Made by a program: the position numbers and the translations under genes. Source: Tribonema minus (lineage: Eukaryota > Sar > Xanthophyceae > Tribonematales > Tribonemataceae). From it: 64,000 bases of DNA. Where the stretch lies: contig JAFCMP010000423.1 of assembly GCA_017506865.1 (NCBI GenBank), positions 620,001 to 684,000 on the forward strand. Reading direction: 5' to 3'. The notes under the pieces were generated by a model that did no database searches, was not told where the DNA came from, and saw only the letters and a program-made list of their open reading frames with translations. Shown here one piece after another: positions 2,734 to 63,765 of the stretch. Positions within the stretch are counted from its first letter, which is position 1, and every line of letters begins with the position of its first letter.

Positions 2734-5700
2734 GTGTTCACCTGCAAGTGGCGCACACCGCCAGAACAGCTGACGCGCTTGTACCGGCGTTTATGCAACA
2801 CGGTCCTAGAGGACGGAGGCATGGTGCGATGCGTGGAGAACCATGGCGTCAAAGACCTGGCCTACCGCTTCAGGGCTAGAACAGTAAGTACTTGAAGTTG
2901 AATAAATGCCCTGCCGCGTCAGCGCCAGGGCGGCAAGTTGCTTAGAGTGTGATTGAAGCACAGCGATTGAAGTAATGTTTTGAAGTACACCATATGGACC
3001 TCATGCCCATCGCCTATGTAGTGCTTGAGAGCTAGAACATGAGACGCCTGAAGTCACAACCGATGGGGCCAGGCCTATAGGCCTAATGCCTCAGAGCTGG
3101 AATAACAAATGCAACAAGCATATGCCACAACAAATTCAGACCCCCACCCCACCCCTCCAGACAGCCCGCATTGCATTGCAATGCAGCAAGGGGGTCGCGT
3201 GTGTTTACGATGCTGCAGAGATCCCAGCGTCGCCCTTTTGTTCAAGCAGGCTCTTCGGCTGCGATACGCTGAACATGCTAATTCTTCAACATGTTCGTTG
3301 CAGGCGTTGACCCTAACCTCCAGTGGGTGCTGTTGCGTGCCATGTCTAACCCTAACCCTAAGATGGATTACTGCTTGCGAGCAAACACACAGGCGGCGTA
3401 TGCAGACGGCACACGCTCAAGGCTGGTCAAGCACTTCAGCACCAGGGTGTTTGAAGTTCAAGTATGCGTCGTGCCGCGTGCTACCCCTGGCACTGCGCCA
3501 CTCTCCCGTCATGCGGAACGTGACACTCTTGCAACGCCGCCGCTGCGCAAAGTTGAAGTTCAGCACCTGAGTTGGCGATCGGCAATCTGTGGCGCGCGCG
3601 CCTTGGTCCCAGCATCCGCTTTCACCATTCAACGTGTACATCATGAAATCCGCCACTCACTTTCGACCCCACACGCACAAGAGGCATTCGCGGCTAAGCA
3701 CACCTTGTCACCTAGAGCTCTGAGATCTTCTTATTCGTTTCCATGAGTGCGCGCGGCGATTGCGCGCGGGAGGCATCCACCTTGTCTCTGTGTGCTGTTT
3801 TGCCCTCAGCATCAGCTGTGCGCCTTCACAGTACTTTAAGTACGTGATGAAATGCACCACTCACCAGCGACCGAACACGCGCATGAGCGCGCACTGCAAT
3901 TGCGCGTGGGAGGCACTGAGTTTGTGTCTGTGTGTGCCGCGCGCGCCGCGTGCGCAGGCCATGAGCGGCTCGGAGAACCGGTATCACACACGCGGGCGCT
4001 GGGTAAGTATGTATTTCGACGCGCGCCCGGAGACGCTGGACAAGATCGACGCCGATCTCAAGATGCAGGACTTCTACCTACGGTCAAACACAATCAAGCC
4101 GGTGAGAACGAAGTGCATTCGCTGTGAGGTGAAACCGGCAACTCTCTCCTCCTGGGAGGCGACGGGTTCAATTTTAGCTGAAAATTGCTGCATGTAAACT
4201 TCAACTTGAACTTCAAGTGCCCCGAGACGCTGGACAAGATCGACGCCGATCTCAAGCTGCAGGACTTCTACCTGCGCTCCACTACAAACAAGCCGGTGAG
4301 GAGCTGAACTTGAAGTAAAGAATGGTCGCATGCAAACTTCAACAGACCATCTCAAGCTGCAGAACTCCTACCTGCGCTCCACCACAATCAAGCCGGTAAG
4401 AATGAAGTGCATAACTGTGTGGTGAAACCGACAACTCTCGTGCGAGGTGCGCTCCATTACGATCAAGCCGGTGAGAAGTTTAACTTCAAGTGAAGAGTGG
4501 CCGCGCATGTGAACTATAACTGACGATATCAAGCTGCAGAACTTCTACCTGCGCTCCACCACAATCAAGCCGGTGTGGAGTGTAACTAACTTAAAGTGAA
4601 GAGTGGCCGCGCATGTGAACTTCAACTGAAAACCCAACTGTGCGCATCCACCTGTGTGATTGTCCACTGAGTGTGTTGATGCAACGCTCCACCATGATCA
4701 AGCCCGTTGGTGTTGTGTTAACTTCAACTGCCATGAACTTTAACGGTGTCATCGCCTCCCCAAGACGATGGTGAGAGAGTAGGCGCTCACGCAATTAGCG
4801 CATGATCACTCGCTACCGCCCCGGCCTTCTCGCTATGGGCCAACAGTCTCGCGTTCGTACGCATTTATGTAGAAAGATAGTAGGTATGTATGTATATTCC
4901 GCACATCGGACGCAGCGCTTCGCTGCTGGTGGGTGCCGCGGTGCCATCGCTGCTGTGAAGTTTATGAAGGTCTCATGTAGCGGTGTACAGCGGTGTGCGC
5001 AGCGTATGCCTGGTTTACAGAAACGCGGCGGAGCGTGTTGTCGTTGTTGTGTCCTCTCGTGTTTCTGTCGTGGCAGCAAAGTAGGCGCTGCTTCGCTGTT
5101 TATTGTACGATGCCGTTCAGAGCCGCAGCATTGCCATCTAGTCACCGTGTATGGCCACAAGCAAGCAACAGTGACATATGCTAGCATGCCCTCTATGGTT
5201 CTCATGCCACTCGTCGTTTCATGGCGTCTCTGCTGGTAGCCCTGGGGTCAGGGTTTCCTCAGCAAGACATTGAATACATCACTGCTGCACGAGTTCTGGT
5301 GGTGCTCTGCCCTGGCTGCCGGCCAGAGGGCTTCCTGTGGGCTGAAAGGTTTTGTTTTTTTTTCCCCTTGTTGCAACAACCTACCAAGACAACGCTTGTG
5401 TGGACCGTGGCATATACATACCGTATGCGTATGTATGTACACCGTGGCAACTGCATCGCCACGAGCTCCCTTGTCCCAGCTTTTGACATCATTACTCTAC
5501 CTGATGACTCATGACACCAGCAGTGCCCGAGTGGTACTGAGCTCCCGAACGCTCTCCTCTTAGGGGTAGGGTTACGGTTAGGGTTAGGGCTAGGGTTACC
5601 CTCGACCGCCTCGACGAACAACAAACCACATGCAAAAAACAAGCGCTGCAAACAGCACGTTTTCCAGTAACAGCGCTCATGCGACGCACGCCAAAAGCAC

Positions 5701-14500: not shown

Positions 14501-17500
14501 CCTGTCAAAATGTTATAAGAAACGGGTGTCTTATACGCCGTATAAGATACCCGTTTCTTATACAGAGGCACTGCCTTATACCCCGTGATTTACGGTACTT
14601 TTCGAGATTTGCTTGCCTGCCGCTTAGTGCCGATGACACAGTAAGTTATGAGAAGTTCTACTTGAAGTAATCAGTCACTTGAAATCAGTCATCGCCTGTC
14701 ACGTTCCCTCAGTTAGCAGCGACTTTTAAACTGATGCCTTCAAAATTAGGGGTAGGTGGTGGCTGATGCAGAGCGCAAAACAACAGCAGCACTAAACCAT
14801 TACTTCATCTTCATTACTTCAACTTGAAGTCAGCGCTCACCTGCTGCTGCCGCGTCCCCTCGTCCAGCAGCGACTTGGCCCTCTCCAGCATCGGCGCCGG
14901 CAGCCGCAGCGCTACTTCAACTTCATTACTTCAACTTCACTACTTCAACTTGAAGATTCACTACTTCAACTTGAAGAAGTCAGCGCTCACCTGCCGCGTC
15001 CCCTCGTCCAGCAGCGACTTGGCCCTCTCCAGCACCGGCGCCGGCAGCTGCAGCCTCTCCGCCACCGCCAGCGCAAACGACTCGCCTATCGCACCCGCCA
15101 TCAACCGGTACGTGGGGCGCCCTTCCACAAACTGCATCGCCGCGACTTTAAAGCGCGCGTCCCCTGCCGCGAGCTCCTTCAGCTGCAAGTAGTGCGTCGT
15201 CAGCGCCACGCGCGCGCCGCTGTCGAGCAGCGCTTCGAGGAGCGCCTGCGCTAGCGCGACGCCTTGCGCGGGGTCCGTGCCGCTGCCCATTTCGTCCATC
15301 AGGACGAGGGCGCCGGGGCGTGCGCGCTCGAGCACTGCCTTGCACACCTGGGGGGGGGGGAATGGTAGGCGGTGAGGAACTGGTGGGTAGGTTGCTAGTG
15401 AGAAATTGCAAGGGACATTATTAGTGATCAGGTTCCGGGGCGCGCGCACTCGAGCACTGCCTTGCACACCTGGAGGGGTTAGTAGGTATCAAGGGTTGCA
15501 AGGTAGATTGGTAGTGATTAGATTTGTCCCCCACCATGGTATGCCCGCTGAATAACCACAGGCCCACCCCCATGACATACAGGTAACTTCAAAACCAGAG
15601 TTAGCAACTACACTGGGGCGTTGAAGCCAGGCCCCCCTCTCAACATCAACGTTGAAGTCTCACCATGAGGTGCCCGCTGAACGTCGACAGATCCCCCGTG
15701 ACGCTCTGCAGATCCCCAATGTCGGCGAGAACGGGATCAAACACATCGACGCGTGCACCGCGCGCCGCTGGTACGGGTATTCCCGCTCGCGCCATGAGAG
15801 CTACCAGCCCTAGCGTCTTCAGCACCACGGTTTTGCCGCCGGCGTTGGGGCCGGTGAGAACCAGTGCCTGAGGATGTGAAGAATGAAGTAGGGTTAGGTT
15901 AGGTTAGGTAGGGTTAGGGTAAGGGTAGGGTTACACGAGGTAGGGTACGGGGATGCCCGCTGGTGCCATGAGGGCCACTAGCCCTAGCGTCTTCAGAACG
16001 ACGGGTTTTGCCGCCGGCGTTGGGGCCGGTGAGGACCAGTGCCTGAGGATGTGAAGAATGAAGTAGGGTTAGGTTAGGTTAGGTAGGGTTAGGGTAAGGG
16101 TAGGGTTACACGAGGTAGGGTATGGGTATGCCCGCTGGTGCCATGAGGGCCACTAGCCCTAGCGTATTCAGGACGACGGTTTTGCCATCAAGGTTGGGGC
16201 CGGTGAGGACCAGTGCCTGAGCGGTGTGGGGGTATGAGGTAGGGTTAGGCTTAGGGTAAGGTAGGGATATACTTTGGGTTGGGGGGTTTGTGAATCTCGT
16301 TAGGGTTGGGGTTGGGGTAAGGTGAGGACCAGCGCCTGAGCGATGATGTGGAGAACGAGGTAGGGTTGGGGTGAGGGGGGCATTGTAGGCAATCAGGGTT
16401 AGGGTAAGGGTAAGGGGGTAGGGCCATACGACGTATGGTTAGGGTTTGTGGAAGCCAACGTTGAGAATGGGGTCGGGGCAAGGTGAGGACCTGAGCGGTC
16501 TGGAGCACGGAGGTGGGTTACGGTCAGGGTGGGATTGTAGGCAATTACGGTTAGGCTTAGTGGCGGCCAGAGTCCTTGCCATGCATCGCCAGCATGAGGT
16601 GGCGAAACGATGGCAGAATCTGGCATAAAGCCGCACTGGGTAAACACCTCCTTCCGCCGCACAAACCTGCGACGAGGCATCTAGCTCAGCGCAACGCCGC
16701 CGAAACGATGGCAGAATCTGGTATAAAGTCCCATCAGCCGAAAACTCCTGCCACGCACACCTCCAACAAAGCATCTCGCTCCAGGTCATTTTGGGCACCG
16801 GGGGAGTCCTTGTCACGCAGCGCCAGCCTGAGGTGGCAAAATGATGGCAGAATCTGGTATGAAGTGCCAACGGCTAAACACTTTCGCCACACACACACGC
16901 ACCTGTGACGATGCATCCAACTCCAAATCATTGGGCACGGGGTCCTTTCCCACGCAGCGCCAACACATATGCAGTGGGGGCCATGAAGGCAGAACCTGGC
17001 ATAACCTTGCACTTGGCAAAAGTAATGGCAGAACCTGGCGTATGAAACTTGCACCTGCGCGTACCTTGGCACCGCCTGCCATCAGCTTGACACTGGCGTT
17101 CCTGCCACAAAACCGCCACACGCACCTGCGACGCGGCGTCCAGCTCCAGATCATTGGGCACTGGATCCTTCCCACGCAGCGCCAGCACCGGGTGGCGCAC
17201 GGCGCGCAGGCGGATCGCGCCCTCGCTGCCGACCTCAGGAATGGTGCCTCCGAGTCGAGCTCCGAGTCGCGCGCGCGCACACGCCAGGTCCACCTCCGCA
17301 GCAGCGCTCAGCGAGGCGAGCAGCGGCCGCTGGTTCTGGCCAACCTGCGCCAGGCAGCATGAAGTGTAGGAGAGTCGCAGGTTGAGGTGCACAGTGTAGG
17401 AGAGTCACTGGTTGAATTGCACTGAGGTCAGTGAGGCGCGCAGCAGCTGTTGGTTCTGGCCGACCTGCGCAGGCAAGGCAGTGCTCAGCATGAATCATAG

Positions 17501-20500
17501 GAGAGTCACTGGCAGAGTTACACTGAGCGGTCGCGAGACGATGACTTGTGCGGCGCTTCCGCCACGGAGACCAGCGACGCGAGCAGTGGCCGCTGGTTCT
17601 GGCTGACCTGCGCAGGCAGCAGTGGTCAGCATGAAATGTAAGGAGAGTCACTGGTGAGTGTGTGGGGAAGTCACTGGTTGACTTGCCCTGTTATTGACAA
17701 CGGGGTGCGGCTGCGAGTCAAATTCTGAGTCAGAGTCCGGCTGACCTGCACAGGCTGCTCAGCGCATCGAGGTATGGGAGAGTCACTGGTTATGTTGCAC
17801 TGCAACTTGAGACAGGTTGAGGCCGATCTACACAGACAGTGCTTCGCGTGAGCAGAGCTGTCGGTGCAGAAACAAGGCCACATTTCGTGCATGATGCGTA
17901 AAACCTCAACATTTGCTTTGCAGTACGTACCTTGATGGTCATACGCGACCAGGATGCGCGCTTCCTCCGCCTTAGGGTTAGGGTTAGCTTAGGGCTAAGA
18001 TCACTTAAAACTAGGGCTGTGGTTAGCCCAGGGTGCCCACTGCGTTGTGCGCAGATGCCTTGGGCTTAGCGAGGTGCTTGGCCAGGGTGCGCCCGCTACA
18101 GAAACCGAGGCCTCAATTCAAGTCTACTGTAACAAACATACATGCATACCTTGATGGTCATGCGCGACAGGATGCGCGCTTCCTCCGCCTTGAGCGCAAG
18201 CTTCAGCTCCACCAGCTCATTGGTCGGCTCGACGACGGATGACGGCTCTATGAACAGCGTCTTGCCCGTGCGCGATACGTCGTGGACGATGCCGACGCTG
18301 CGAACATAAACAAGAGGTTCAGCATACATGACATCAAGATGCGTGTCACGTACATAGTGCTTCAAAGTTTACGATGTTTATGTATTGTACACCAGATCAA
18401 CAGGGTCTTGCCCGCGCACGATACGTCGTGAACAATGCCGACGCTGCACATGAGGAGGAAAACCACATGTGAACAACCACGGCGCATGCATGTACATGAT
18501 GCTTTGAAGTATATGGTGTGCATATGATGTCAACAGGGTCTTGCGCATGGGCAATACGATACGTCGTGGATGATGCCGATGCTGTGGAAATGGGGAGAGT
18601 TGGGGTTAGGGTTAGGGTAGGGTTTAAGGATAGGGTTACAGTAAGATAGACAATTGTGCTTGAGGACATTGTAAAGCATCAGCAGTAAACACTGGGTTAC
18701 AAAGTAGGGTTAGGGTTAGAATTATAGAAGCCTACAACAGGATGAGCGCGAGGATGAGTAACTGTTAGGGCAACGGAAGTCACGAACCTGCGGTGGAACC
18801 GCTACTAAGGGTGAAGCAAGTGACTCGCTTTAGGAAAAAAAAAAGTCACTCACTTTGCGCTTGTACTATAGTAGTATTGCAAGCAACAGGTCAAGGGTTT
18901 CAATTGAGATTGAGCAAGTCACTCACTTGCGCTTGTACGTGGGCTTCACAGGCAGCACAAAGCGGCCATTGACCTCTGACACGTCAGATGATTTGATTGA
19001 TGATAAGGAGGTGAAGGACAGTCACTCACTTGCGCTTGTCATAGGCTTCACAAAAGGCAGCACAAGTGCCGCTGCAACAAGACGCACATTTGATTGAAGT
19101 TGAGGCACGCCACTCACTTGCGCTTGTATGTGGACTTCACAGGCAGCACGAGTACAAAGCAGCCCTTACCGATTCCCTTACTTTAACCCTAGTCCTAACC
19201 CTTACTCAGGCAAGTCACTCACTTGCGCTTGTACGTGGGCTTCACGGGCAGCACAAAGCGTCCATTGACCTCTGACACGTAGGCGCCCCTGCCCTCGTCC
19301 GCCAGCATGCCGCTGAAAGTACCCGAGCTGAGCAGCTTCTGCACCGACTGCCGGATGCTGCACAGAGGAGGGTGGGGGTGGGGGGGGGGGGGGGGGCAAG
19401 GTTAGGGCTAGGGTTAGGGTTGGGCTAAAGTTAGGGTTTGTGGAGCAGTGCAAGTACAGCATGCGAAGGCATCTCGCACTCCGTCACGTCTTCTCAAAGA
19501 CGTTGGGATGATTTCTGCCGGATGATGCGCGGAGAGCGCGCAAGGAGGGCTAGGGCTAGGGGGTTAGAGGTGGTGTTTGGTGTAGGCTAGGGTTAGGGTT
19601 AGAGGTAGTGTAAGGGTCAGTGCAGTGCGCAGCTTGATGTCAATTCTGGCCCTGTCCTCAACTCCAACCCGGAGCGTTTGTAAGGCATCGCAAGCACGCA
19701 GTGACTGCTGGGTATGCATGTATTTCGGGCAAGACTGCCAAATGCGGCATGGGAAAGCGTGCAAATGCAGCCCGTCACGGCTTTTTCATCACTGAGATGT
19801 TTTCTGAAACTGATGCGGCGCAATGTAATCCCTCCTGCTACCCACTCTCACAGAGGCCGCGGGGACTCCAACCCTAACCCTAACCTTTACCCTAACTCTA
19901 ACCCTAACCTAACCCTAATTGCGTATGCCGGACCAATTCTCGTCTCACTCACCTGCTGCGCTCTTACAGGGTCAGGGTTCACCCGAAGCCTAACCCTGAC
20001 CCTGATCCGTCGCGCCCATCCTAACGCCTATCTTTATCTTCCTGCGGCCCTGAATTTGACTCTAGACCCAACCTTGACTCTTCTTTGGTACAAAGTCCAT
20101 CCATCCAAGCAACCCTAACCCTAACCCTGACCTTGACCCTAAAACCAATTTTAGCCCTGAACCCAGCCCTAACCCTCACCCTTGCCCTAAGCCTACCCCT
20201 AACACCACCCGTAACCTAACACACTGACCCGACCCTTCATCCAATGCCAACATGATGCAAACTTTGATGCATGCACACCTGCTTGAGCATGCGCAACACC
20301 GCTCCGGCTGCTGTCAGCCTTTGGGGGTTAGAATAGGATTTAGGGTTAAATTGGAGTAAGGTTAGAGGTAGGGTTAGGGTTAGAGTTAGGAGCACACCTA
20401 ATGCCAGCCCCCTCAAGGAGGGCAGGCTCTTGAATCTCGGAAAAAACTTCTTCCGCTCACCTGTCATACAGCTTGTCTATGCGCGCGCGCAGCCGCCCCA

Positions 20501-23064
20501 GCTCCGGAAACTTCTTCCCGCACAGCTCTCCCGTCGCGTCAAACGCCTCGTGCAGCAGCTCCACCAGCTCCGGATCCAAATAAATAGGTCGCGTCAGCCC
20601 CTGCAGCGTGGGGGTGGGGTAGCGCGCGCCCGCGCCGCCGCTGACAGTTACGCCCCGCACCGGAGCGTCCCCCTCCTCCGGGTTGAAGAAGCGCTTGAGG
20701 TTGGAGAGCGACGTGAGGCAGTCACTGACTTCGCGCAGCTCGGGGGGCTCGAGCGTGGTGCCCTTTGCTGCGAGCGCTATGATGGCCTCGATGTCCATGC
20801 CGCTGGCGATGGGCACCGGCTCCGTGAGCGAGTATACTTCCTCCACGCCCCTGTTGAAGTTGGGTTGAAGTTGAGGCGTGGTTGAGTTTGGTTTGAGTTT
20901 TGGCTAAAGGTGAGTTTGCTTGGCATATGTACACGGAAGAGGTGAGCGAGTATACCTCCTCCACGCCTCTATTCAAGTTGGATTGGAGTTGAGTCATCGT
21001 TGAGTATTGGTTCCAAGTTGAGGTCGCCTGACATCTAGTGTTGGTTCGAGGTGAATTCGCATACTTGACATCTGTACAAACCAGAGTGTCAGCTCGAATT
21101 TGGTTCTGGCCCCAAATACAACTTCTGGCTCAGGGTAAGGCCACAAAACAGAAGCGCAGGTCACGCGGAGGGAAGACACGAGACTGCGTGCTGAAGCGTG
21201 ATGCACTTCAAGTTGAAGTACATCAGATAAGGATGACGTGCGGTGGGTCTGAAATGAGGTAGCCGCTGCCACTCCTTGCAGCTCGTGCGCTGAAGCGTCA
21301 TGCACTTCAAGTTGAAGTACATGCAATTGTATGATGTGAGATGCGTCTGTGATGCAGTAGCCGATGCCACTGCCTGCACCTTGTGCTGAGACACGTACAC
21401 TCGGTCACTGTTGTCTGAGACAGGAGAAGGGCTCTTCTGAGTGTTGAGGTCTCGTGAGCGTCACGGGTTGAAGTTGCAATGTGAGGATGACTGGAACCGG
21501 GCTCACTGACAGAGCGCGCCTCTCCTATAGCACCGAGATTCTGTGAGAGTCACAGGTTTAAAATTGCGATGAAAAGGGTGATGAAACTAGTTATCTGTCA
21601 CGGCGTGTCACAGATCTCAGCGAGAAGGACAGCGCAGCACGACTCAGCAAAATAATGTTGGGTCGCCACGTTTCACAGCTTTTACAATACCTCAGTGACA
21701 AGAATGTTGCATTGAATTGCGTCATGGCTTAGTAAGAATGATCATGTGTGCATATGGTGTTGTGTACTGAGCATTGCATGACGCAACGGCATTACTCTGC
21801 CAAAACGAAGTTTGTGTACCAGGAGCGCAATGCTTAGTGTGCTTCTCGTGGTTGCATGTGTCTTGACGGCACTTGCCACGCAGTGATGGCCTGGTGCCAA
21901 GTGTAAACGGCACTTGCCAGGCACTGAAGGCCCCCCGGCGATTTATCAGCGACGAGGCTGTTGTGTCACGTAGCAGCACTGCTCAACTGAGGTGCTGCTG
22001 TATCACTCGAAACCATTCTTGTCCAACGTACTGCAGTCAGCCACACTCAGTCACAACAGGCGTTATTTCTGTGCATGGTTCACTGCAGTCTACAACAGCA
22101 GCTATGACTAAGCCCATGCTGCAAATCAGACACATTTATGACAACTGAACTGAGATATTACTACAGTACTCTCAAAGAGCCCTTAAAGAGTTGCTGTGCA
22201 CCTCCTGTGACTGCAGCTTTGACTGAGCTGCAGCCTGTTACTCATACAAATACCCACTACTCAAATGAGATGTAATTACTCTGACTTCAACGAGCCCTGA
22301 CATAGTTGCTGTACCTCCTGTGACCAGCAGCTTCAACTGAGCTGCAGCAGCAGACAATGACTTGCCCATGGCTGCTGTAAGGCTCGCTTGGACAATAAAC
22401 CACTTGCTTGCACTTGACTTGAAAATAGATGCTGCTTGCCGTCGTGGAAGGCTGTGCAGCAACAGCTGCGTTGCAAATACGGAAAACTTCAAATTGCTGC
22501 GTCAGAGTGTGTGACATCTGCGCTGTACTAGACGACAGAGTTAAGCTTGAGCTGCAGGTATAACATGTCATGCGCAGCGCTTCGGACTGTGCTGCGTCAC
22601 CTGTAAAGCGCTTGCACCGACTCCACGTCCGCTTTGAAGTCCGCTTTGAGAGCCGCCTTCCTCCCCATGGCCGTCCAGCACTCCTTGGACAAATGCTCCA
22701 GCACCACCCCAAAGTCCAGCGACTCCCAGGTCCGCGCAAAGAGGTCGACGCCATCAGCTGGTGGCTCCTTCGCAGGCTCTGCTTCTGCTGGTTGCTTGGT
22801 CGGGGGCTTGTATGTCAGCGGCAGAGGCCCCATGAGAGGGTTGTAGTCCTGCTGTCGCTTGACTGCTGGATCTGAAGACGACATGCAACATAGGTTGCTT
22901 CTGCTGAATGCAGCATGTCGGCAAGCTGCTGCTGGTCCGCATCTGCTGCTGCCGCCCACTGCGAGCCACGGCGAGAATCCGTGTGTGCGCGTCACTGCAA
23001 TTGCCAACAAGGAGAGGAGTGCCTGCCGAAAGCTGCCGCCCCTGGAGTTTTGAGTGCTGGCCAT
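8524..23064 (-). CDS. MUTS2: MutS2-family ATPase/Smr nuclease, 13 exons, plastid-type leader
   Basis: MutS2 proteins are MutS-like ATPases with a C-terminal Smr domain. They act on branched DNA and, in bacteria, on collided ribosomes. Exons (high to low): 23064-22601, 20850-20461, 19357-19223, 18297-18150, 17344-17126, 15867-15664, 15347-14991, 13489-13349, 12253-12153, 11526-11451, 10248-10030, 9260-9013, 8692-8524. They sum to 2871 nt (956 aa plus TGA) and every phase matches. Landmarks: [17 protein letters not shown] in exon 4; RHPVL in exon 5; Walker A GPNAGGKT at 458-465; DIGD 501-504 and STFSGH 513-518; Walker B LMDE 536-539; TTH 570-572; coiled coil in exons 7-10; a KOW-like segment in exon 11; Smr LDLRG 881-885 and LHGHGT 913-918. 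Residues 1-60 hold a hydrophobic segment, then GFSP and a basic Ser/Ala-rich stretch, like a signal plus transit peptide. An in-frame ATG at 23124 could add 20 residues. Bacterial MutS2 is about 780 aa. The Smr motif is LDLRG, not LDLHG. Confidence 0.95.
9357..9540 (-). repeat. Two acceptor-side copies of MutS2 exon 12
   Basis: The first bases of exon 12 (GCCGCGGCCGCCGGCTTG.., + strand) plus the upstream acceptor and intron sequence (GGGCGTCAC..GGTGAAGTTGGG) recur at about 9357-9425 and 9462-9540, in the same orientation as the exon. They lie 100-210 bp into the upstream intron. Sequence decays with distance. Confidence 0.85.
9697..9912 (-). repeat. Two donor-side copies of MutS2 exon 11
   Basis: The end of exon 11 (CGACAGCTCGTGGAGC..TTGATGGTGGCGCGGCC, + strand) recurs at 9829-9912 and 9697-9760. 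The first copy retains the CTGCGGCG..AGCCTGCG donor-proximal segment. They are separated by repeated GAAGTACACTGTT units (9925-9975). Confidence 0.85.
9979..9997 (+). mobile_element. 19-bp micro-insertion of the LINE 3' end
   Basis: GAGCGAGAATTAATAAAAA, identical to the last 19 bases of the retrotransposon, is flanked on both sides by GTACAT (9973-9978 and 9998-10003). A perfect target duplication around an exact 3' terminus argues for target-primed insertion aborted after 19 nt. It lies in MutS2 intron 11. Confidence 0.8.
10335..10532 (-). repeat. Acceptor-side copies of MutS2 exon 11
   Basis: Exon 11 start plus acceptor (GGGGGGTCAGCCC.AGGTC.TCCACCTG, + strand) recurs at about 10375-10412, followed by a G10 tract. 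A weaker flank copy (CAGCAACAGCT.GGGGGGCAGCGGGTGT) occurs at 10337-10366 and again at 10491-10520. Confidence 0.7.
10805..10936 (-). mobile_element. 5'-truncated LINE copy, 132 bp, perfect 12-bp target duplication
   Basis: Identical over 132 bp to the last eight sense codons, stop codon and 3' UTR of the full-length element at 46646-46777. It is flanked by ACATTTATGTAC at 10793-10804 and 10937-10948. The element ends in five A residues abutting GTAC of the target. It is inserted in MutS2 intron 10, antisense to the window and so in the same sense as the MutS2 gene. Identity implies a very recent insertion. Confidence 0.95.
11140..11200 (-). repeat. Donor-side copy of MutS2 exon 10
   Basis: Minus strand reads ATCAAGGCCGCGGCGGAGGA..GAGGTATAC, a copy of the exon 10 end (ATCAAAGCGGTGGCGGAAGA..GAGGTACGT) with a donor-like GT. 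It still reads in frame ([13 protein letters not shown]). It is the best candidate for an alternative exon, but using it as well as exon 10 would duplicate a coiled-coil segment. Confidence 0.75.
11530..11575 (-). repeat. AC/GT microsatellite at MutS2 exon 10 acceptor
   Basis: Impure (AC)n, read as (GT)n on the gene strand, directly upstream of the exon 10 acceptor at 11527-11529. It replaces a conventional polypyrimidine tract. Confidence 0.8.
12325..12510 (-). repeat. Two acceptor-side copies of MutS2 exon 9
   Basis: Exon 9 start (CTCAAGCTCTATTGCATACT.. CCGCCTCG, + strand) with the acceptor CCTRCGCAAAC.AGGGT.GAAG recurs at 12327-12405 and 12437-12510. The period is about 112-115 bp, separated by GGGCTTGAAGTT spacers. 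Confidence 0.9.
12795..13275 (-). repeat. Donor-side copies of MutS2 exon 8
   Basis: The exon 8 end (GCGCTCACCTTCTTCCTCT, + strand; donor AAG|GTGAGC on the gene strand) recurs at 13211-13265 and 12796-12860. A piece without the donor (CTTCGCC..CCATATGCA) lies at 13105-13130. CCCTAA-type repeats lie between copies (12900-13035). Confidence 0.85.
13550..13622 (-). repeat. Acceptor-side copies of MutS2 exon 8
   Basis: CGGGTTCTCGCTCCTGCTC..GTCTCGAATCAGG and CCGGATCAGGTTGCTGACCT reproduce two parts of the exon 8 start next to CTG(TCATGATT), each followed by CATGAT-type flank sequence. Confidence 0.8.
13874..14598. mobile_element. 725-bp TIR element (MITE-like) in MutS2 intron 7
   Basis: Perfect 24-bp terminal inverted repeats, 13874-13897 and 14575-14598 (outer bases GTACCGTAAATCACGGGG). 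Inside, shorter palindromic modules with TTATACGGCGTATAAGA cores recur near both ends (13945-14050 and 14440-14570). If the outer TA is the target duplication, the layout suits a Tc1/mariner-type non-autonomous element, but this is inference. The interior holds an impure CAG tract (14197-14232) and no transposase. It lies in an intron, so it should be spliced out. Confidence 0.85.
14833..14920 (-). repeat. Donor-side copy of MutS2 exon 7
   Basis: The exon 7 end (CGCGTCCCCTCGTCCAGCAG.. with donor GTGAGCGC on the gene strand) recurs at 14833-14920, nearly identical except for a small CTG insertion at the junction. Spacers consist of CTTCATTACTTCAACTT repeats (14805-14980). Confidence 0.9.
15351..15480 (-). 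repeat. Poly-G/C tract and acceptor-side copy of MutS2 exon 7
   Basis: A G10 run (poly-C on the gene strand) directly precedes the exon 7 acceptor. The exon start (CTCGAGCACTGCCTTGCACA, + strand) with acceptor CCTGG recurs at 15432-15475. Confidence 0.85.
15868..16345 (-). repeat. Three acceptor-side copies of MutS2 exon 6 with telomere-like blocks
   Basis: A roughly 174-bp unit contains the exon 6 start (Walker A coding, GGTTTTGCCGCCGGCGTTGG, + strand), its acceptor and about 60 bp of AGGGTTAGGTTAGGTAGGG-type sequence. It is repeated at 15953-16110 and 16128-16260, with a remnant at 16318-16400. The telomere-like block is copied with the exon edge, so the unit that duplicated already included it. 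Confidence 0.9.
16570..16965 (-). repeat. Serial donor-side copies of MutS2 exon 5
   Basis: Segments like the exon 5 end (GATCATTGGGCACTGGATCC..CCCACGCAGCGCCAGC, + strand) recur at about 16900-16965, 16756-16825, 16655-16695 and 16575-16600. They are separated by a recurring GATGGCAGAATCTGGYATAAAG module. Confidence 0.8.
17400..17775 (-). repeat. Acceptor-side copies of MutS2 exon 5
   Basis: GCTGGTTCTGGCCAACCTGCG (+ strand), the exon 5 start, recurs at about 17428-17490, 17578-17640 and 17735-17765 with decreasing identity, interleaved with AGGAGAGTCACTGGTTGA units. Confidence 0.85.
17922..17998 (-). repeat. Donor-side copy of MutS2 exon 4 ending in telomere-like repeats
   Basis: GTACCTTGATGGTCATACGCG..GCGCGCTTCCTCCGCCTT copies the exon 4 end for about 47 bp. 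It then switches at CTT directly into AGGGTTAGGGTTAGC. The junction falls at a telomere-like repeat. Confidence 0.85.
18402..18590 (-). repeat. Two acceptor-side copies of MutS2 exon 4
   Basis: GTCTTGCCCG.GCACGATACGTCGTG.ACAATGCCGACGCTG (+ strand) at 18402-18450 and a weaker copy at 18536-18585, in the intron upstream of exon 4. Confidence 0.85.
18845..19165 (-). repeat. Four donor-side copies of MutS2 exon 3
   Basis: CACTCACTTGCGCTTGTACG.GGGCTTCACAGGCAGCAC (+ strand), the exon 3 end with donor, recurs at 19113-19160, 19021-19070, 18926-18985 and 18848-18872, a period of about 95-100 bp. The 18926 copy extends furthest into the exon (to GACACGT). Confidence 0.9.
19379..20395. repeat. Telomere-like repeat-rich MutS2 intron 2
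   Basis: A poly-G run (about 19379-19396), then scattered TTAGGG (19400-19440, 19552-19600, 20330-20390) and CCCTAA blocks (19868-19917, 20110-20215). Orientation switches within one intron. No gene seen. Confidence 0.8.
20940..20982 (-). repeat. Acceptor-side copy of MutS2 exon 2
   Basis: GTGAGCGAGTATACCTCCTC CACGCC followed by CTATTCAAGTTGG copies the exon 2 start and acceptor region (20825-20865). Confidence 0.85.
21000..22600. repeat. MutS2 intron 1 with palindromic CTTCAAGTTGAAG motifs
   Basis: The 1.6-kb intron has no supported gene. A 60-bp tandem-like pair (GCGTGCTGAAGCGTGATGCACTTCAAGTTGAAGTACAT..) occurs at 21186-21225 and 21285-21322, centred on the palindrome ACTTCAAGTTGAAGT. A second pair (CTGAGCTGCAG..) lies at 22215-22350. 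Confidence 0.6.
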
Positions 23065-23261: not shown

Positions 23262-26200
23262 ATGGTACGCAAAAAAGCTTCCAATGAGGCAAGCCGCAAC
23301 GCCAGCAGTATGGCAGCACCGGAGTCGTCGCCGCCGCCAGCAGAAGAGGAAGGAGAGGACGCTGTTGACGACGATGTTGAAGCTCAGGTCGCACTCACAG
23401 CTAGCTCCAAGCGCGACGCTCAAGCCGCCTACGCTCAGGCTCGCCGCCGACTGTCTGATGTCGACATGTTCTGGTCGCAGAAGCTGATGATGGCCATCGA
23501 CGTGCTGCAGATCTACGCCCTTCTCTGGTCGATGAGCCAGCCATGGCCGTGGCCCTACACCTGGCTGCGCAGCACACGCTGGACTCTCATCGCAAACCTG
23601 GACATCCTTGGCCTGTCTCCAGGAGGAGCGGGCATGGGCAGCACAGCCGTTCGAACCAGCGTGTGGGGAGAGAGACCCCACTACCTGCGCTACGCCGCCG
23701 CCTTCGCCCTGATCCCCGCAGCCATCGCCCTGCTGTGGGCAGCCAGAGGACCCTTGGCAGCCCCCAGGGCAGGCCCATCCCGCTGTTGGCGCGTGCAGCG
23801 CTTCTTTCAAACCCGCGGGCGCATCGCTCTGGAAGCAATGCTCCTCGTCAGTGCGGACCTGCTGCTGCTGCCAGTAGGACTCGCCATCTCCCGCATCTTC
23901 ATCTGCGAGGGAGGCGTGCTGATGGTGGACCCCGCTGAGCACTGTGGTGCAGGGCGGCAGCTGGCGCTGGCGGCGGTGCTCGGAAGCGGCTTTTGCGTGG
24001 GCGCGCTGCTGTTTGCGGGGAAGCTGTGGACCCTGGCGCAGCGGGTAAGCTCGAAGCAATGATGCACAGTGCAAAGCCGCCTTTACTTTGATTTCGACTA
24101 CCAATTGCACTTGACAATGCGGCTGAAGCGGTGTTGTGAGGCGGGTGTCATGCTGTGAGCGGCATGGCAGGTGCAGACGGGTTGACAGAGTGGAACAGGC
24201 GTGGCTTTATCTGAGTTGGTTCGTGCATGTTTTAATGCTGTAGGCAAGCATCTGGGAAGGCATCATCTGATGAGTTGCCAAAGTGGAGGCGGCAACTTCC
24301 AAGTTGAAGTCGCAATGCATGGTGGGCGTGTGGCCTACTAACCACTTGTTTGCCCACTCCAAAGGTTGGCTGCTGCTGAGAAGTGCGCACAGGTTTGCTC
24401 AACCCTAACCCTAACCACTAACCCAAACCGTACCCCTAGTTTATTGCACCTCTGGCCTGAGCAAGCACAACCTGATGCAAGTGGTGACTCCTCCACACTT
24501 GAAGTATTGTAATCGACGAGCTTTGGGCCAGAATGAAGGTTGCAGTGCTGAAGCTTACATTATCACTTCAGAGTCCTGTATAGGCGCGCATGAACTCAAC
24601 AGGCAGGACCCATGCATGCCTGCAGCTGCGTTAGGTAATGGGGCTATTCCCTGAGCGTCGACACCATGCCTACCCCAAACTGATCTAGTAAATGTTGTGT
24701 CATCTTACCAACTGGAAGTACGCACCTCCTGCAGCATTGGCAATCATTAGCCCATGACTCAGTATGACTAGCCATAGCATCACTTATTGTCAACACCACT
24801 ACCCTTACTGAATCCAGCAAGCCATCACCTGCAACTGCAGCAAAGCATTAGAAGGTACGGCAGATTTGCAGCACCAGGCAGCATCTTGACTCGAACTTCA
24901 ACACCCCCGATGTTGTTGCACATATAACCTTGACCCTAGCCCTAACCTGTTTGTAACCCAACTTAACCAGGCAGTACTTGAAGTTGTAGCTGCCTGCTTT
25001 GCCTTGCTACGACGGGGGTCATTGCCTCAGCTCGCATCTCACTAGTACTGTACCCTGCCGGGACACTGGCTCTGATACTGGCTGTTGCCTCAACTCGCTC
25101 ACCACAACTCAGCGCTGGCCAGCGGGTATCAGGTAAGGGTAAGGATCAGGGTTGCTGGATGTAGGTGATCACCACTATAGATTGCTCACAACATGACGTC
25201 CTGCCCCAAAAACACTACTGCTCACAATTATCGGCAAGGCCACGAGAAGTGGAGCTGGAGCACGCCCTTCTAAGCGCTGCCACACCTGGAGCGGCTGACC
25301 CTAGTTGCCACAGCATGCCCTGTTAACACCAGCGCCTCCCCAATGGCAACCCTGGCTACACGCGAACCGCTGCAGGCCATCCTCTGCGACAATGTCCAAG
25401 AACTTGAAAAGCACCTGCAGCTGCTGGAGCTCGCTCCGCTGAACACTGTCCCTCACACACCGCTGCAGGCCATTTTTGTAACATGGCAGCCCCTGTCGTT
25501 AGGTACTGACACCAGCACCTGCCATCGTAATCTCCGACAACAACAGATGTCAAGTGAAGTTCAAGTTAAAGTTGGTTAGAAGTGTAAGCACTGACATCCA
25601 GCGCCACCTGTGCACTCTTGCAGGCCATCGCCTACGACTACGCGCAAGATCACGAGAAGCACCTGCAGCTGCTGGAGCTCGACCATGCCCTCCTGAGCGC
25701 TGCCACCACCGGCGCAGCCACCAGCGACCACCGCGCCGCGCACGCGTGGCTCGTCGCCAGCTACCGGCGCCACGCCGCGCACCACCGCCTCTCAACTTCA
25801 ACTTTGAAGTTGACGCTCCTCGCCGTGTTCGCGGCGCTGCGCTTCCGGCCGCGCGCGCAGGCGCTCCTGTTCTGGGGGGTCCTGACCCCCTGGACGGCGT
25901 GGGTGGCAGCGCTCAGGAGGCCGTACCGCTGCGCCTCGAGCAACGCGCTCGCAACGATCTGGTTCGGCGCGCTGTGGCTGATAAGGCTAGTAACGGGTGC
26001 ACGGTTGATGATGACTCCCAGAACAGATGATTAGTGCGTTCGTGAACATGCACATCGGATGCGGTTGGTGGAGATTTGTACATCACACAAGGGGTTTCCG
26101 CCCCTCAAGCGGAAGTTGAACAGCACAACACTTTTTCACACCATAAGCCGAGATTTTAAAGAGGAAAAACTTAAGATCATGTCAGCTGGGGTACAGCGGC

Positions 26201-29200
26201 TCCTCCGATGTATCGCAAGCGCTGTGTGTTCTTAGAGCAGACGCTGGGATGGGCACTCGCCAACAACATAACTAGTGTGATGCAGCAAATGCTACACCCC
26301 GGAACACAAACAAGCAGTGCTGGAATGTTAAAGCAGCGCTACACCAGCCATACCAAATGTGTGGCACATCCGCAACGTGTCTCACGTCACACAATTATCC
26401 AGCATATGCTCACTGGGCCTCCAGATGTGTACCACTAAAGCACATCATGATTGCTGCTGAATGCGTGACTAGCCCTCCCAGAATTTATCTTGAACTTCAG
26501 TGACCTATTGCATGCACAAAGTGTGCGCACAAAGTCTCATCTGCAACAACTCACTGCTGCCGCATGCTGCAGCTCCTGCTGCATGCTGACAGCACTGCTT
26601 GAAGTTCATCTTCAAATCATCTTGGTGTCAAACCACAGTCAACTTGGCGCTTTCATCTGCGCCTAACTGCTGCCGCTGCTCTTGCTTCAGCATGTTGATG
26701 AAGGGCTAGAGCGCCCCTTGCTTGAAGTGAATGGCGAAGTTCATAATGTCATCTCACACTTTCATCTGTACCTGCCTGCTGCGCGGCGCAGCTCCTTTGC
26801 GGCATGGGGGGCGGGCTGCGGCGTCGCCTCTTGATGTTCATCTTGAAGTCAATTACTCAATTGCACTTCCAACCTGCGCTTGTCCCGCAGCTCCTTCGGC
26901 ATGCTCACGGGCTACGGCGCGCGCAGCAGCACCTTCTTAAGCTGATCTTGCACAGCCACCACCGAAACTTCATATTCATCTTCAAGTTCAATATCAGTCA
27001 TCTCGCACTTCCAATCTGCGCTCGCCCCGCAGCTCCTTTGGCATGCTCACCAGCTACGGCGTTCGCAGCAGCGCCATTGAAGCACAGCATCACCAAACTT
27101 TAACTCCATCTTCAACTTCAACAACAGTCATCTCACACTCCCAATCCGTGCTCGCCGCGCAGCTCCTTCGGCATGCTCACGGGCCACGGCATGCGCAGCA
27201 GCGCCTTTCAAAGCACAGCATCACCAAAACTTCAACTCCGTCTTCAAGTTCAACAACAGTCACTCCCATCCGTATTCGCCCTGCAGCTCCTTCGGCATGC
27301 TCACCGGCTACGGCGTGCGCAGCAGCGCCCTAGTGGCGAGCGCGCAGGCCTACTGGCTCGGGCTGATCGCTGCCGCGGCCGCGTGCGCGTCAGCAGTGCT
27401 CATACTGCTGGTGGCGATTTCGCGGAAGCGCGCCACGCGTGCGCTGTCGCGCGGGCGGTTGTTAGGGGCGCATCAGTGGCCTTCGGCGCCCACGCTCGCC
27501 GCCATTATGTGGGACGAGAGGCGTAGAGGCTGGGTCACAACAATCAGGTAGGTAGTCTGGCGCGTCTGCAGCACACGTGCAGTCTGGCAATAGGCACGGT
27601 GCTTGCAGCAGCAGGCGCCCGACGCTGGGGCCTTTGTCGGGGACGAAAGGCGTACATAGGGGCTGGGTCACGACAATCAGGTTTGTACTTTTATTATATT
27701 CCACTTGTGGCTGTGGAAATGCCATGTTGTAGGTTTGTACTTGTGGACTTGTGGTGTTTGAACTAACCCTAACCCTAACCCTAACCCTAAGGTGTTAAAC
27801 AGGTCTTTTGCGCGCCATGTGAGCTCGTTCACGCCCTGGGCAAGGGTTAACAAGAAACACGATGCAGGCACAAGCAACAGGGAGCTCGCCGCCATTGTGT
27901 GGGATGAGAGAAGGAGAGGCTGGGTCACGACAAGAAAGGTAGCCGCTTGCAGCAAGAGTGCTTACGTTCGGCCGTTGCTGCATACGCAGGTGCGCAGAGC
28001 AAGCTGGCTTCTGTTCAAGCTACGGTCGTCGTATGTCCAGCTAACAGTTTCAGCTGATGTGGTCGTGATGGCTGTGTCGTGTCAAGCGCTGGCGACTCCA
28101 TGCTGCCACGCCGTGCATATTGTGGGTCTGCAAAGGGGTCTTGACCCTAACCCTAACCCTAACCCTAATCCTAACCCTAACCCTAACCCTAACCCTTACC
28201 CTGACCCTTACCCTACTGCCCTACCCAGACACTGCCCTATTTTAGCCCTAAGAGTGGGTCAATGCAGTACGCCCATATCTAGCCCTAGACTTGCCCTCAC
28301 CTAGCCTGTTCCTTAGGGTTAGAATTAGGGTCCTTTTGACCCTTACCCTTACCCTAGCCCTGATGCTAAATGCCTCAACCATTGACGCACCCATGTGATC
28401 CCCTCCCGCCACGCCGTGTATGAAATTATCAACTTCCTGTGTGTCCTTCCCTAGGGTTAGGGTTAGGTTAGGGTTAGGGTAGGGTTAGGGTTAGGGTTAG
28501 GGTTAGGGTTAGGCCAAGCTGCATTCCATACACTCCAGGTCAGCGCGTGAGTCATTCCCTGCTCCTATGGCGCGCGCTGCTAAACCCAGCCCTCACCCAT
28601 CAGCGACCCACCAACACCATGCACTGTAGCCACCGCGCCCTCATCAACCTCAGTCATATATAGAAGTGCTTCGCTTCGAAGATGCTGAGCATTGCCACCT
28701 GCTGGCACAACGGACAGGGAGGGTGCACGTGATTATGCCAGCATTTCGTCCATGACTGCACCGGTACTCAACCTTCAGAAGTATTACTTCTACCTGTTGT
28801 TAGAAGTGTTTGTTGAAGTAACACACTGCCTGTTGTACCACGCTCCGCATATCCCTCCAGGTCTGCGCGCGAATCACTGGTCCTGTGGCGCGCTTTGCCA
28901 CCAGAGCTGGTGCCAATGCAAGACATTGAAGCTGCCATGGGCGCGCTCTGGGCGCAGTGGGGGGAGGCGAAAGCCGCCGACAGCCTTCTAGAGCATCCGC
29001 TGCGGGAGGCGCTTGAGGATATGGCTGAGCTGCATGAAAGGACCAGGTGAGCTCAGCCACTTCAAATGCGAGTGCTGCATCGTACTTGAAGTACTTGCAC
29101 CCAAAGATATCCCCCCCATGGGCGGATCAGCGAGGGGGACATCATACATGTAGCCTGACCCTAACCCTACCCCTAATCCTAACCCTAACCCTAAGTGCTT

Positions 29201-39060: not shown

Positions 39061-39137
39061 ATGATAGACAGGTATACAATATCATACCTGCATTGGCCGC
39101 CCTCAGCTATTTTGGCAATAATTTTGCCCTGAGCCTC

Positions 39138-40296: not shown

Positions 40297-40320
40297 CCTT
40301 TCAATCTGCTGCGTAGTGTG

Positions 40321-52176: not shown

Positions 52177-52182
52177 CTTGTA

Positions 52183-54149: not shown

Positions 54150-54179
54150 GTTTATGATCTGCAGCGCGGTTTGAATCTA

Positions 54180-57006: not shown

Positions 57007-57030
57007 GTTTATGATCTGCAGCGTGGTCCG

Positions 57031-58639: not shown

Positions 58640-58768
58640 CAAGCAGCTTCCAGCAGCAGCAGCGTCGGTGGCAGCCGCAGCAGCGGCAGCGGCTGCAGCA
58701 GAAGCACCGGCAGCAGCGGCAGCGGCGGCAGCAGCAGCGCAGCAGCAGCAGCGCAGCAGCAGCAGCGC
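58640..58768. repeat. CAG/GCN tract 3' of the dehydrogenase gene
   Basis: Impure CAG repeats just beyond the dehydrogenase stop codon, plus a (GCC)n run coding eight alanines in its last exon (58820-58850). Confidence 0.8.
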
Positions 58769-61700: not shown

Positions 61701-63765
61701 GCTGCATCGCAGCAGCGCTCCGCATCAGGTCGCTTCAGTGCCCAGACATGTGCCGTGATCTCGTGATCACTCTTCCGCAGCGTCAAGCATTGACATTGAA
61801 GATACCTCAATAGCCCCCCCACATACAGATGTGCCACCCACAACACCCTACGTACCACGAACCGCATCAGTGCCCGTATACCACCGCCTGTACATCAATG
61901 TTACCCACTCATGTACCGATACTTACATACCCCTGCGCACCACCAACCGCAATCGACACCGGCATACCCCCCACCTGCATACCAATATGACCTGTACATA
62001 GTACTGCAAGCACTTGACGTATGCATTCAAGTTGATGGCTAACCACACCTTGTCACCTCGAGGTCTACAATTTTTTGGTTCGTTTCCATGCAATACAAAT
62101 CCATCCCGTGCATGACTCAATCACATTTACTTCCTCCACGGAGTCCAATGTTGCCTACACATGTACTTGAAAAATACTTGAAGTGTGCGATACCCATACA
62201 TACCTTGATCATGTTGACCTCCTCCACGGAGTCCTGCCCAACGTCTCCACACATCAGGTTATTAGACAGATCGAAAGAGCAGCGCCATGGATTCCTGAAG
62301 AGGGACACCACAAGCAAGAGAGCAGTGATTGAGTGATCGTGCCGATGCAAACGCACGCATTCCTGATTTCATAATACTAAAAAGGCAGGCAAGGCATTAA
62401 TATGGAAGACATTAGTATGAAACGCACGCATTAATATGGAAGGCAAGATCTGGCCGTACGGTTGCGTTTTACCAAGAACAGTCGGTGGGCTGCCCAAAAC
62501 AACAGTGCTCGCAGGTGCTAGGATCAAGCTTCCAGTGCAGAAGCATCGTTTGCCATTGTTTGCAAGCACACATTCAACAGGTGGTCGCGACTGTGTTTTT
62601 TTCATGTTTTTTTCCAATGAGTTTCAATACGTCCCTTCCAGCAAGAAGCACCTGCGCAGCTTGGGACAGGTGGACTGCCGTATATGTAATTGAAATACGT
62701 ACCTCAAGCCGTACGCGTACACCGTTCCTAGCGCAGTGACACCATTCACAACGGCCGTTGCGCCAACGAATGGGTTGTCGGTCGGGACAGAGTAGAAGGG
62801 GCCAACTGCGATGGTGGCTTGCGCCTGCCAGATGCGCACGCGCAGCATCTTGCCGAGAGGGCTGGAGAGGTCCTGCGCGTTGCCGGTGTCGCCGTGCATG
62901 TCGTCTGCAGCCAACCAAAGAGCACCGAGGCTGTGAAGTTGAGCTTGACGTATGAGAACTATGCATATGTAACGATAAACAAAGAAGTTGACCTTGAAGT
63001 ATGGTAACGCGTCATGAAACATGTCGGTATTGCTGTGCATATTGGCTGCACCCAGAGACGCGAGCAGGGTGTGAAGTTGAGGTTGAAGTATGGTTATGCA
63101 TTCAGGTTAAAGTATTGTAGGTATGCAAGTGGATGTGAACTGCGGACGAGCATCATCGTTTGCTGAGGGGGCGCAGGGAACTGGCGCGTTGATGGTGTTG
63201 CCGCGCATGTTGGCTGCACTAACCCTGACCCTAACCCTAACCCTGCCGTGTCAGCATCTGCACCGCCGCAACAACAAAAAAAGCGGAACATCAAGGCTGA
63301 ATGACAATGCACATGTACATTGCGCACGAGGCCATTGCGGAAGGGTAAGGCACAATGTAGCAAGTTCGAGTTCATTTCCATCTAACGATCACCCGGTTGC
63401 AACTTCAACTTCATTTCTGCCGCCGTGGTGAAGATTTGAGCGGTTCATATACTTCAGCTTTGAATTTGATTCAGGTGCTCTCAGGTGTTGTTCGGCCAAA
63501 AGTGGCAGCACTCATGCATGCACTCATGCCTAATCCTAGCTCTATACCTAAACCTAAGCCACAATGAACATCAACCAAAACAACAGCTGCTGAACTGCCC
63601 CCTGCTGAAACCAAGCAGCCTCAGACTGAACTTCAGCAGTCAACTTGAACGATACTCACTTGCGCCACCGCCGTCGCCGGTCGCAATGTAGAGGTCGTGG
63701 TATGCGGCCGCGGGGTCCAGATTGTTTTGAAAGCTGATCCAGCCCGCATTGTGGTTCTGCTCAGG
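58769..63765 (-). CDS. Glucose/sorbosone dehydrogenase-like protein (HHIPL/PQQ-type beta-propeller), 5' partial
   Basis: Soluble-type beta-propeller sugar dehydrogenase family, usually secreted. Exons 63765-63660, 62904-62703, 62294-62204, 60842-60660 and 59122-58769 (TGA) give 311 residues and all phases match. Landmarks in family order: HNAGWISF and LYIATGDGG; DTGNAQDLSSPLGKMLRV; YSVPTDNPF; YAYGLRNPWRCSFD; DVGQDSVEEVN; GANYGWRYHEG; PPIFEYCHQ; SITGGVLF; LYAFADFETSTVTGIW. The usual TGG..YRG element is present as SITGGVLFH. The C-terminus ends in a short Cys and poly-Ala tail. The N-terminal half, including any signal peptide, lies beyond 64000 or in exons I could not see between 63766 and 64000. 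The family is also called GSDH; substrate unknown. Confidence 0.88.
59235..59950 (-). repeat. Six acceptor-side copies of dehydrogenase last exon
   Basis: GTGGAAGAGGACGCCGCCGG TGATG..CTGG.CCGTCACCTG (+ strand), the last exon start plus acceptor, recurs with ends at about 59245 (weak), 59438, 59565, 59695, 59815 and 59944. Each is followed by GTTGGCAATTTCAAGTTGAA-type spacer. The period is about 120-130 bp. It fills almost half of the 1.5-kb intron. Confidence 0.92.
60331..60373 (+). repeat. CCCTAA telomere-type array
   Basis: Four CCCTAA units then degenerate ones, in the same intron as the six exon-edge copies. Confidence 0.9.
60955..61705 (-). repeat. Six acceptor-side copies of dehydrogenase exon 60660-60842
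   Basis: TTCACGCGCGTGCCCTCGTG GTACCTCCAGCCGTAGTTGG C (+ strand), the exon start plus acceptor, recurs at 60962-61035, 61098-61165, 61230-61300, 61362-61425, 61512-61580 and 61648-61720. Each is preceded by AGGTTTAGGGTTT or TTAGGGTT, so the telomere-like motif is part of the repeating unit. The period is about 130-150 bp. Confidence 0.93.
62130..62165 (-). repeat. Donor-side copy of dehydrogenase exon 62204-62294
   Basis: TTCCTCCACGGAGTCCAATG TTGCCTACACATG copies part of the exon near its donor (CTCCTCCACGGAGTCCTGCCC, 62219-62240). Confidence 0.75.
63015..63215 (-). repeat. Two acceptor-side copies of dehydrogenase exon 62703-62904
   Basis: Weak copies of the exon start (GTTGCCGGTGTCGCCGTGCA TGTCGTCTGCAGCC) at 63023-63055 and 63183-63217, the second followed by CCCTAA repeats (63220-63244). 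Confidence 0.7.

Follow-up and report, generated by a model that had tools for sequence, protein, structure and literature searches.

Introns of Tribonema minus genes contain repeated copies of their own exon edges

Introduction

Intron lengthening in protist genomes is poorly understood, and a 64-kb stretch of the Tribonema minus genome raises a specific question on this subject: why do its introns hold repeated copies of the exon ends that border them? The stretch (C423:620001-684000, on contig JAFCMP010000423.1 of an assembly of 554 contigs and 158 Mb) is called the window throughout, and it carries genes on both strands. An initial annotation made from its letters had proposed that introns in five of these genes are built from serial, decaying copies of exon edges together with their splice sites. 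We find that such copies exist in the window and in conserved genes elsewhere in the assembly, that they are specific to the adjacent exon, and that they exceed at splice junctions what uniform duplication produces in matched simulations. On balance, we favour an explanation in which short local duplication, focused on junctions and tolerated by splicing, is combined with exchange between the copies and functional (perhaps allelic) exons. Diverged junction copies would offer a readable record of intron growth, and they open a way to study three matters: the places at which duplications begin, the choice that the spliceosome makes between several near-identical sites, and a possible exchange of sequence between exon and intron copies.

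Exon-edge copies inside the window

Twenty-one junction sides from four gene regions (MutS2, bS6m, a membrane protein and an open reading frame (ORF) at 27 kb) were set by hand, with the sequence of MutS2, bS6m and the 23-30 kb region read directly. Each edge, represented by 90 exon and 30 intron bases, was searched against its own intron, or against 900 bp of flank for the three sides that have no set partner junction, and an alignment score of at least 40 was counted as a copy. By this measure, 13 of the 21 sides yielded 27 same-strand copies (Table 1), 25 of which span the junction, and the best score reached by any of the 21 edges on the reverse strand was only 24. A self-comparison of the window returned 146 same-strand repeat pairs at most 4 kb apart. 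The initial annotation counted over 45 copies across five genes, whereas our figure of 27 covers the junctions set in four gene regions. Two same-strand arrays (59019-59995 and 60794-61734, with a spacing of 121-167 bp) resemble further junction arrays and are candidates outside that count.

Exon-edge copies in ten genes outside the window

Beyond the window, 10 conserved genes on 8 contigs were modelled with a spliced protein aligner: clathrin heavy chain (part only, L008), six CCT subunits and three Cpn60 genes, with chaperonin search matches on C51 left out of the set. Introns of 30-67 bp called by the aligner, along with some that have GC donors, were set aside as artefacts. The edge test used 80 introns of at least 100 bp with GT donors, which provide 160 sides, and queries of 60 exon and 30 intron bases; the self-repeat work used 88 introns, GC donors included. 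Third codon positions in the coding sequence of these genes are 86% G+C, compared with 53% G+C for the introns, and because of this difference a simple codon-based exon detector was effective (tried on the clathrin gene only).

An own-intron copy scoring at least 40 was found at 52 of the 160 sides (30 donor and 22 acceptor), and 50 of these matches span the junction. Expressed by intron, 39 of 80, or about half of those tested, hold at least one own-edge copy. At the same threshold, the reverse-strand control gave a match at none of the 160 sides, as did the other introns of the same gene, a comparison that covers edges plus 30 bases of flank and not whole intron bodies. When the threshold was lowered to 30, the counts became 59 for the own intron, 0 for the reverse strand and 6 for the gene's other introns. 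Random comparisons of edges with introns scored as highly once in 1906 trials, and mid-exon segments used as queries gave three matches in 44. An iterative search raised the total to 106 copies, which lie on 54 of 176 sides with up to eight per side; 97 of the 106 span the junction.

Nine of the ten genes carry copies, although the load is uneven. Six are copy-rich, with copies at 10/24 sides in clathrin, 7/16 in CCT3, 8/14 in CCT8, 6/16 in CCT4, 9/14 in the Cpn60 gene L034 and 8/14 in L035, whereas four are copy-poor (CCT2 0/20, CCT7 1/12, CCT1 2/18 and the Cpn60 gene L029 1/12). Detectable repeats cover 27.4% of intron bases overall, 37.7% in the six copy-rich genes and 3.1% in the other four; the six, called active below, were picked after the result was seen. 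Junction copies are real and are not confined to the window. The initial annotation therefore described correctly the same-orientation copies of adjacent exon ends with their splice sites, which differ from exon to exon, as well as the repeated duplication of junctions in genes across the genome, as far as the 10 genes on 8 contigs show. Its statement that introns are "built from" copies was too strong given the coverage just cited and the complete absence of copies on the sides of CCT2, although about half of the introns do contain them.

Two rival explanations can be weighed at this point. A mobile-element origin, introner-like or otherwise, would draw support from the palindromic motif ACTTCAA/TTGAAGT, which occurs in introns at about 20-fold its expected count on both strands (60 and 51 occurrences against approximately 2.5 and 2.8, in 54.8 kb from the 10 outside genes). 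However, exons too contain more of the motif than expected (2 and 8 occurrences where 0.3 is predicted for each, in 13.6 kb). What is copied also varies from exon to exon, and it finds no counterpart, at the threshold used, on the reverse strand or in the other introns of its gene. We consider this origin very improbable and, in agreement with the initial annotation, reject introners and transposons as the source because the edges, compared with 30 bases of flank, match their own intron only. An assembly artefact, for which nothing was found in favour, is hardly credible, since most copies diverge by several to about 30 percent, carry indels, vary in spacing and occur in nine genes of ten. As a separate observation, the palindromic motif often lies inside duplicated units; it also occurs in the window, for example at 14911-14956, 21190-21386 and 25800.

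Anatomy of the copies and a proposed mechanism

Among 62 non-overlapping copies, the exon part has a median of 48 bases and a 90th percentile of 81, and the offset to the nearest copy has a median of 156 bp (10-90% range 102-207 bp). Most copies retain their splice dinucleotide: among donors, 31 of 36 have GT, and among acceptors, 25 of 26 have AG. In the arrays that were read directly, the copies are partial exon ends. The earlier statement that coding frames are usually broken applies to the spacing, which is random modulo 3 (33 of 98 offsets are multiples of three), but not to the exon parts themselves, as 49 of the 62 copies have no indel there. Translated alternative exons were considered and are not supported, given the random offsets. 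Each unit in intron 4 of L034 follows an AG, but use of that AG would, as judged by eye, lead to the wrong frame.

Simple tandem structure is visible in six of 60 fresh pairs, in which the gap between copies is -3 to +2 bases (L018 4320, aligned 72/72; L017 5837, 4043 and 3153; L002 3435; window 59114). This set of 60 excludes the coding ankyrin repeats that lie in the window (38.9-58.5 kb), in L017 and in L018, and it counts a few places twice via overlapping loci. The 71-bp tandem duplication at L018:4321-4463 is perfect and very recent. In partly tandem cases, the sequence between copies is decayed, indel-rich or unrelated. We had argued that copies cannot be tandem where their flanks stop aligning, and this argument is withdrawn for CCT3 intron 3, where the filler stretch is homologous and aligns upstream once indels are allowed (score 79). 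Fillers of L034 and CCT8, tested in the same manner, aligned poorly (scores of 13, and 41 in a C-run).

We propose that introns grow via recurrent short local duplications, some tandem and others partly tandem, of about 60-210 bp. Where such an event spans a donor or acceptor, the outer original site would be kept, and the extra junction would persist in the intron as passenger DNA. Normal mRNA would still be possible because the outer original site stays in place, and we infer that this outer site is the one that is spliced. The events may start from DNA breaks or nicks and their repair by end joining, and exon edges may be the preferred places. After their birth, the copies appear to exchange sequence with expressed exons or with diverged alleles.

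Do duplications prefer junctions?

Local repeats in the 88 introns form 132 pairs. A junction edge is joined to its own intron in 93 of them (54 donor, 39 acceptor), six pairs lie in exons only, and 33 are intron-intron. Of these 33, 20 coincide with junction copies at least in part, and the other 13 are wholly intronic. We simulated uniform duplication in which an event survives only if a usable outer site is left, and subjected the output to the same detection as the real data. In matched runs (five replicates, each of 47 introns that started at 400 bp, with coverage of 0.38-0.52; intron length and coverage were matched by eye), there were 31-43 junction pairs and 38-52 pure pairs, compared with 98 and 11 observed in the six active genes, whose repeat coverage is 0.377.

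These numbers bear on the simplest alternative, namely that short tandem duplication is uniform, that junction copies are merely tolerated by selection and then amplified by unequal exchange, and that there is no targeting. Exon coverage by copies is 0.26 at the junction and drops smoothly to 0.03 at -80 to -100, with intron coverage of 0.2-0.36 throughout, a profile that speaks for this alternative. Some fresh tandems also lie outside predicted exons (L003 8740 and L017 3153 have none within 400 bp; L018 4320 is beside one), and runs started from 60-bp introns match or exceed the observed pair ratio. In contrast, the matched runs lead one to expect roughly as many introns with pure copies as with junction copies (20-27 and 22-29 of 47), whereas 9 and 35 of 53 were observed. 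We therefore regard untargeted duplication as a serious contender but the less probable one, and conclude that duplication likely prefers junctions, in a manner dependent on the model. Local repeats hold 6.8% of intergenic-labelled bases and 18% of intron-like bases, figures that are not usable as a baseline; none was drawn because several "intergenic" repeats resemble junctions of missed exons or ankyrin coding repeats.

Coding-like divergence of intronic copies

Exons and their copies differ at 0.19 per synonymous site and 0.055 per nonsynonymous site, a nonsynonymous-to-synonymous ratio (N/S) of about 0.29-0.30. Intronic copies compared among themselves give an N/S of 0.38, with 112 of 310 synonymous and 134 of 970 nonsynonymous sites variable on the 26 sides that have at least two copies. 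The corresponding wrong-frame controls are 1.37 and 1.27, and dropping the two strongest L034 arrays moves the value to about 0.45. Variability by codon position is 0.151, 0.135 and 0.291, highest at the third. G<>C changes make up 42% of the exon-copy differences at 4-fold sites, compared with 46% between functional paralogs, 7% at nonsynonymous sites and 10% at intron sites. Furthermore, 21 of 34 informative site pairs are tree-incompatible (5 of 13 arrays were testable), to which repeated mutation could contribute. Age-ordered N/S terciles are prone to sorting bias and are not used as proof, and polarising changes with the paralog was noisy at synonymous sites and is not used either.

This synonymous bias among the copies is the surprising result, found although their spacing is out of frame. 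On the strength of it, we propose that they exchange with functional exons or alleles. One alternative holds that the copies are maintained cassettes, exchanging with the expressed edge or used in some transcripts, such that coding damage is selected against. The low N/S among copies, the highly variable third positions, the paralog-like G<>C share and the tree-incompatible site pairs would all fit. However, the offsets are random modulo 3, the copies are partial exon ends, the AGs of L034 intron 4 yield the wrong frame, and, in the third of copies with the greatest divergence, 10% of nonsynonymous sites are changed. Moreover, the retention of GT or AG in 56 of 62 copies is, by our own estimate, approximately what neutral decay allows. 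Maintained cassettes strike us as improbable.

Another possibility is that duplication occurs between alleles or haplotypes that were already far apart in sequence, in which case the synonymous differences pre-exist and no selection on copies is needed. The same N/S and G<>C data agree with this idea, as does a copy of the MutS2 Walker A exon edge (15953-16072) whose intron flank is identical at 75 of 75 positions while its exon part differs at 12 aligned places: nine or ten synonymous, one amino-acid change and one indel, with codons assigned by eye. Yet no second allele of one 411-base CCT3 stretch is present in the assembly, and the divergence required would be very high, so we are rather doubtful of this origin. 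Capture from alleles of this kind and continuing exchange with the expressed exon are nevertheless the simplest readings of the divergence.

A bolder and tentative extension, which we think unlikely but worth stating, is that the intronic arrays are not decaying junk but a selected reservoir of edge versions, either exchanging with the expressed exon or captured from diverged alleles. If true, a junction-centred cycle of duplication and exchange would lengthen introns and shuttle synonymous variation into and out of coding exons. Should the coding-biased divergence hold, either recombination of exons with their intronic copies or alleles of unusual divergence would be indicated, and neither is to be anticipated in housekeeping genes like those for clathrin and the chaperonins.

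Probable intron growth in the Cpn60 paralogs

The Cpn60 genes L029 and L034 have 78% coding identity and six intron positions in common, as matched by eye. The shared introns measure 141, 357, 479, 772, 302 and 524 bp in L029 and 343, 2382, 897, 1131, 865 and 823 bp in L034, each being longer in the latter, which is also the gene with the greater copy load. Thirteen L034 copies were examined, and in three of them the paralog aligned too briefly for comparison (at least 30 columns were needed). In all 10 comparable cases, the L034 exon is closer to the copy than the L029 exon, and the copies therefore look younger than the gene split; an origin of these 10 from the Cpn60 paralog is rejected. 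Pre-existing introns were probably enlarged rather than gained, with shrinkage in L029 as the alternative.

Discussion

Several results weigh against parts of the proposed mechanism. Identity was said in the initial annotation to fall with distance from the exon, but no such decay is found (rho -0.04, P 0.76), and the nearer copy is the more similar in just 7 of 14 adjacent pairs. Sixteen of the 62 copies reach no more than 10 bases into the intron, the ratio of extension to offset has a median of 0.45, and the six contiguous cases are the only simple doublets among the 60 fresh pairs, the other 54 having gaps between them or sitting within longer arrays. Introns with copies are longer (median 777 bp, compared with 411 bp for those without; P 4.6e-7), although this is not independent support because copies add length and longer introns give more room. 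An N/S of 0.30 against the exon, or of 0.38 among copies, is not what a neutral passenger would be expected to show. When neutral copies were simulated next to an exon under constraint, the 48 replicates yielded 0.33-0.62, compared with 0.29 observed, and for the comparison among copies, where neutrality predicts an N/S of 1, the departure has P 2.5e-13 if sites are assumed to be independent. The simulations themselves use fixed 150-bp exons, a single duplication rate and settings of our own choosing, and runs from 60-bp introns reached junction-to-pure ratios of up to 11.7 in one set and 8.8 in another. The first set placed junction copies in 70-75 of 88 introns (36 of 88 observed), and coverage in the second was 0.71-0.86 (0.27 observed overall and 0.38 in active genes). 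Junction preference is thus model-dependent, because matched runs show an excess but tiny-intron runs reach similar ratios.

Introns can arise by tandem duplication of an exon segment that contains AGGT. The copies described here resemble this process in being tandem duplications that carry splice signals, but the intron already exists and a whole donor or acceptor is duplicated. A second parallel is found in rice, where tandem or partly tandem insertions of 10-1000 bp are ascribed to the repair of nicks or double-strand breaks (Vaughn and Bennetzen 2014, via PMC7407515). The rice duplications are likewise local, in the same orientation, within that size range and tandem or partly tandem; in our six contiguous cases, the copies lie -3 to +2 bp apart. 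In contrast, the Tribonema copies are serial, concentrated at junctions, gene-specific and coding-biased in their divergence. Introner elements of Amoebophrya, Aureococcus and Micromonas (PMC7789003) also shape the introns of algal or protist genomes, but here no shared element was found, with no search made for terminal inverted repeats, and introns are apparently enlarged and not gained. Tandem exon duplication and mutually exclusive exons (PMC6071210) share the tandem copies of exon sequence beside an exon, but the typical copy in our data is one exon edge rather than an entire exon flanked by its two splice sites. Among the literature matches listed, there was no description of introns carrying exon-edge copies.

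Features of the window

The window copies are collected in Table 1. MutS2 is the sole gene region of the window above the Pfam cut-off, with MutS_V on 14964-15488 (minus strand) at E 1.5e-16. The bS6 match falls below the cut-off, at 20.3 of 27 bits, and the Pfam search gave no clear family for the membrane protein or the 27-kb ORF.

Table 1. Exon-edge copies and related features of the window, in window coordinates; names of junctions give the position of the parent donor or acceptor
Feature	Position	Strand	Match	Remark
MutS2 gene region with edge-copy introns	14815..22900	-		outer limits approximate; C-terminal MutS_V exon 14964-15488; Pfam and reading
MutS2 donor CGCAA gtgagt, last exon base	19223	-		taken as site in use, by reading
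Donor 19223 copy	18914..18984	-	69/71	-58..+13 around junction
Donor 19223 copy	19103..19149	-	42/47	
Donor 19223 copy	19020..19065	-	40/47	
Donor 19223 copy	18843..18866	-	23/24	short
Acceptor 18298 copy	18396..18447	-	46/52	
Acceptor 18298 second copy	18532..18584	-	42/53	
Donor 18150 copy	17928..17973	-	44/46	stops 3 bases into intron
Acceptor 17345 copy	17572..17621	-	46/51	
Acceptor 17345 copy	17428..17475	-	42/49	
Donor 17126 copy	16894..16966	-	63/73	
Donor 17126 copy	16750..16837	-	66/89	
Acceptor 15868 copy	15953..16072	-		includes start of Walker A exon
Acceptor 15868 second copy	16127..16248	-	100/122	
Acceptor 15868 third copy	16308..16367	-	47/60	
Acceptor 15348 copy	15435..15478	-	41/44	
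Acceptor 20851 copy	20942..20993	-	46/52	
Donor 14991 copy	14815..14910	-	88/99	
bS6m donor 4101 copy	4219..4300	+	74/82	
bS6m donor 4101 copy	4349..4424	+	64/77	
bS6m donor 4101 copy	4524..4575	+	45/52	
Membrane-protein acceptor 25623 copy	25371..25433	+	52/63	
Exon-only copy near membrane-protein acceptor 25623	25250..25283	+	29/34	short of junction
Acceptor 27286 copy	27136..27205	+	62/70	
Acceptor 27286 copy	27022..27075	+	50/54	
Acceptor 27286 copy	26884..26933	+	46/50	
Donor 27547 copy	27614..27682	+	55/70	
Exon-only copy near donor 27547	27884..27933	+	44/50	ends 4 bases short of junction

Other elements were also noted. Coding repeats with an 81-bp period, LEVLQWARANGCPWD, which we take to be ankyrin-like, occur in the window at 39138-39929, 43750-44601, 52848-54176 and 56182-57129, in several genes or gene remnants. 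A 1786-codon open frame on the minus strand (46754-52114) reads like a LINE-type reverse transcriptase, with a YMDD-like stretch picked out by eye. Eleven short matches to the psaA/psaB family are scattered over contigs (L021 and others), some of them with stops, and are probably nuclear insertions of plastid DNA. One psaA-like fragment matched 168 sequences, and the 60 of these that were listed are all PsaA chains. Finally, interstitial telomere-like TTAGGG arrays are frequent, with window examples at 5560, 19870, 20111, 27763, 28144, 28452, 29154 and 60332.

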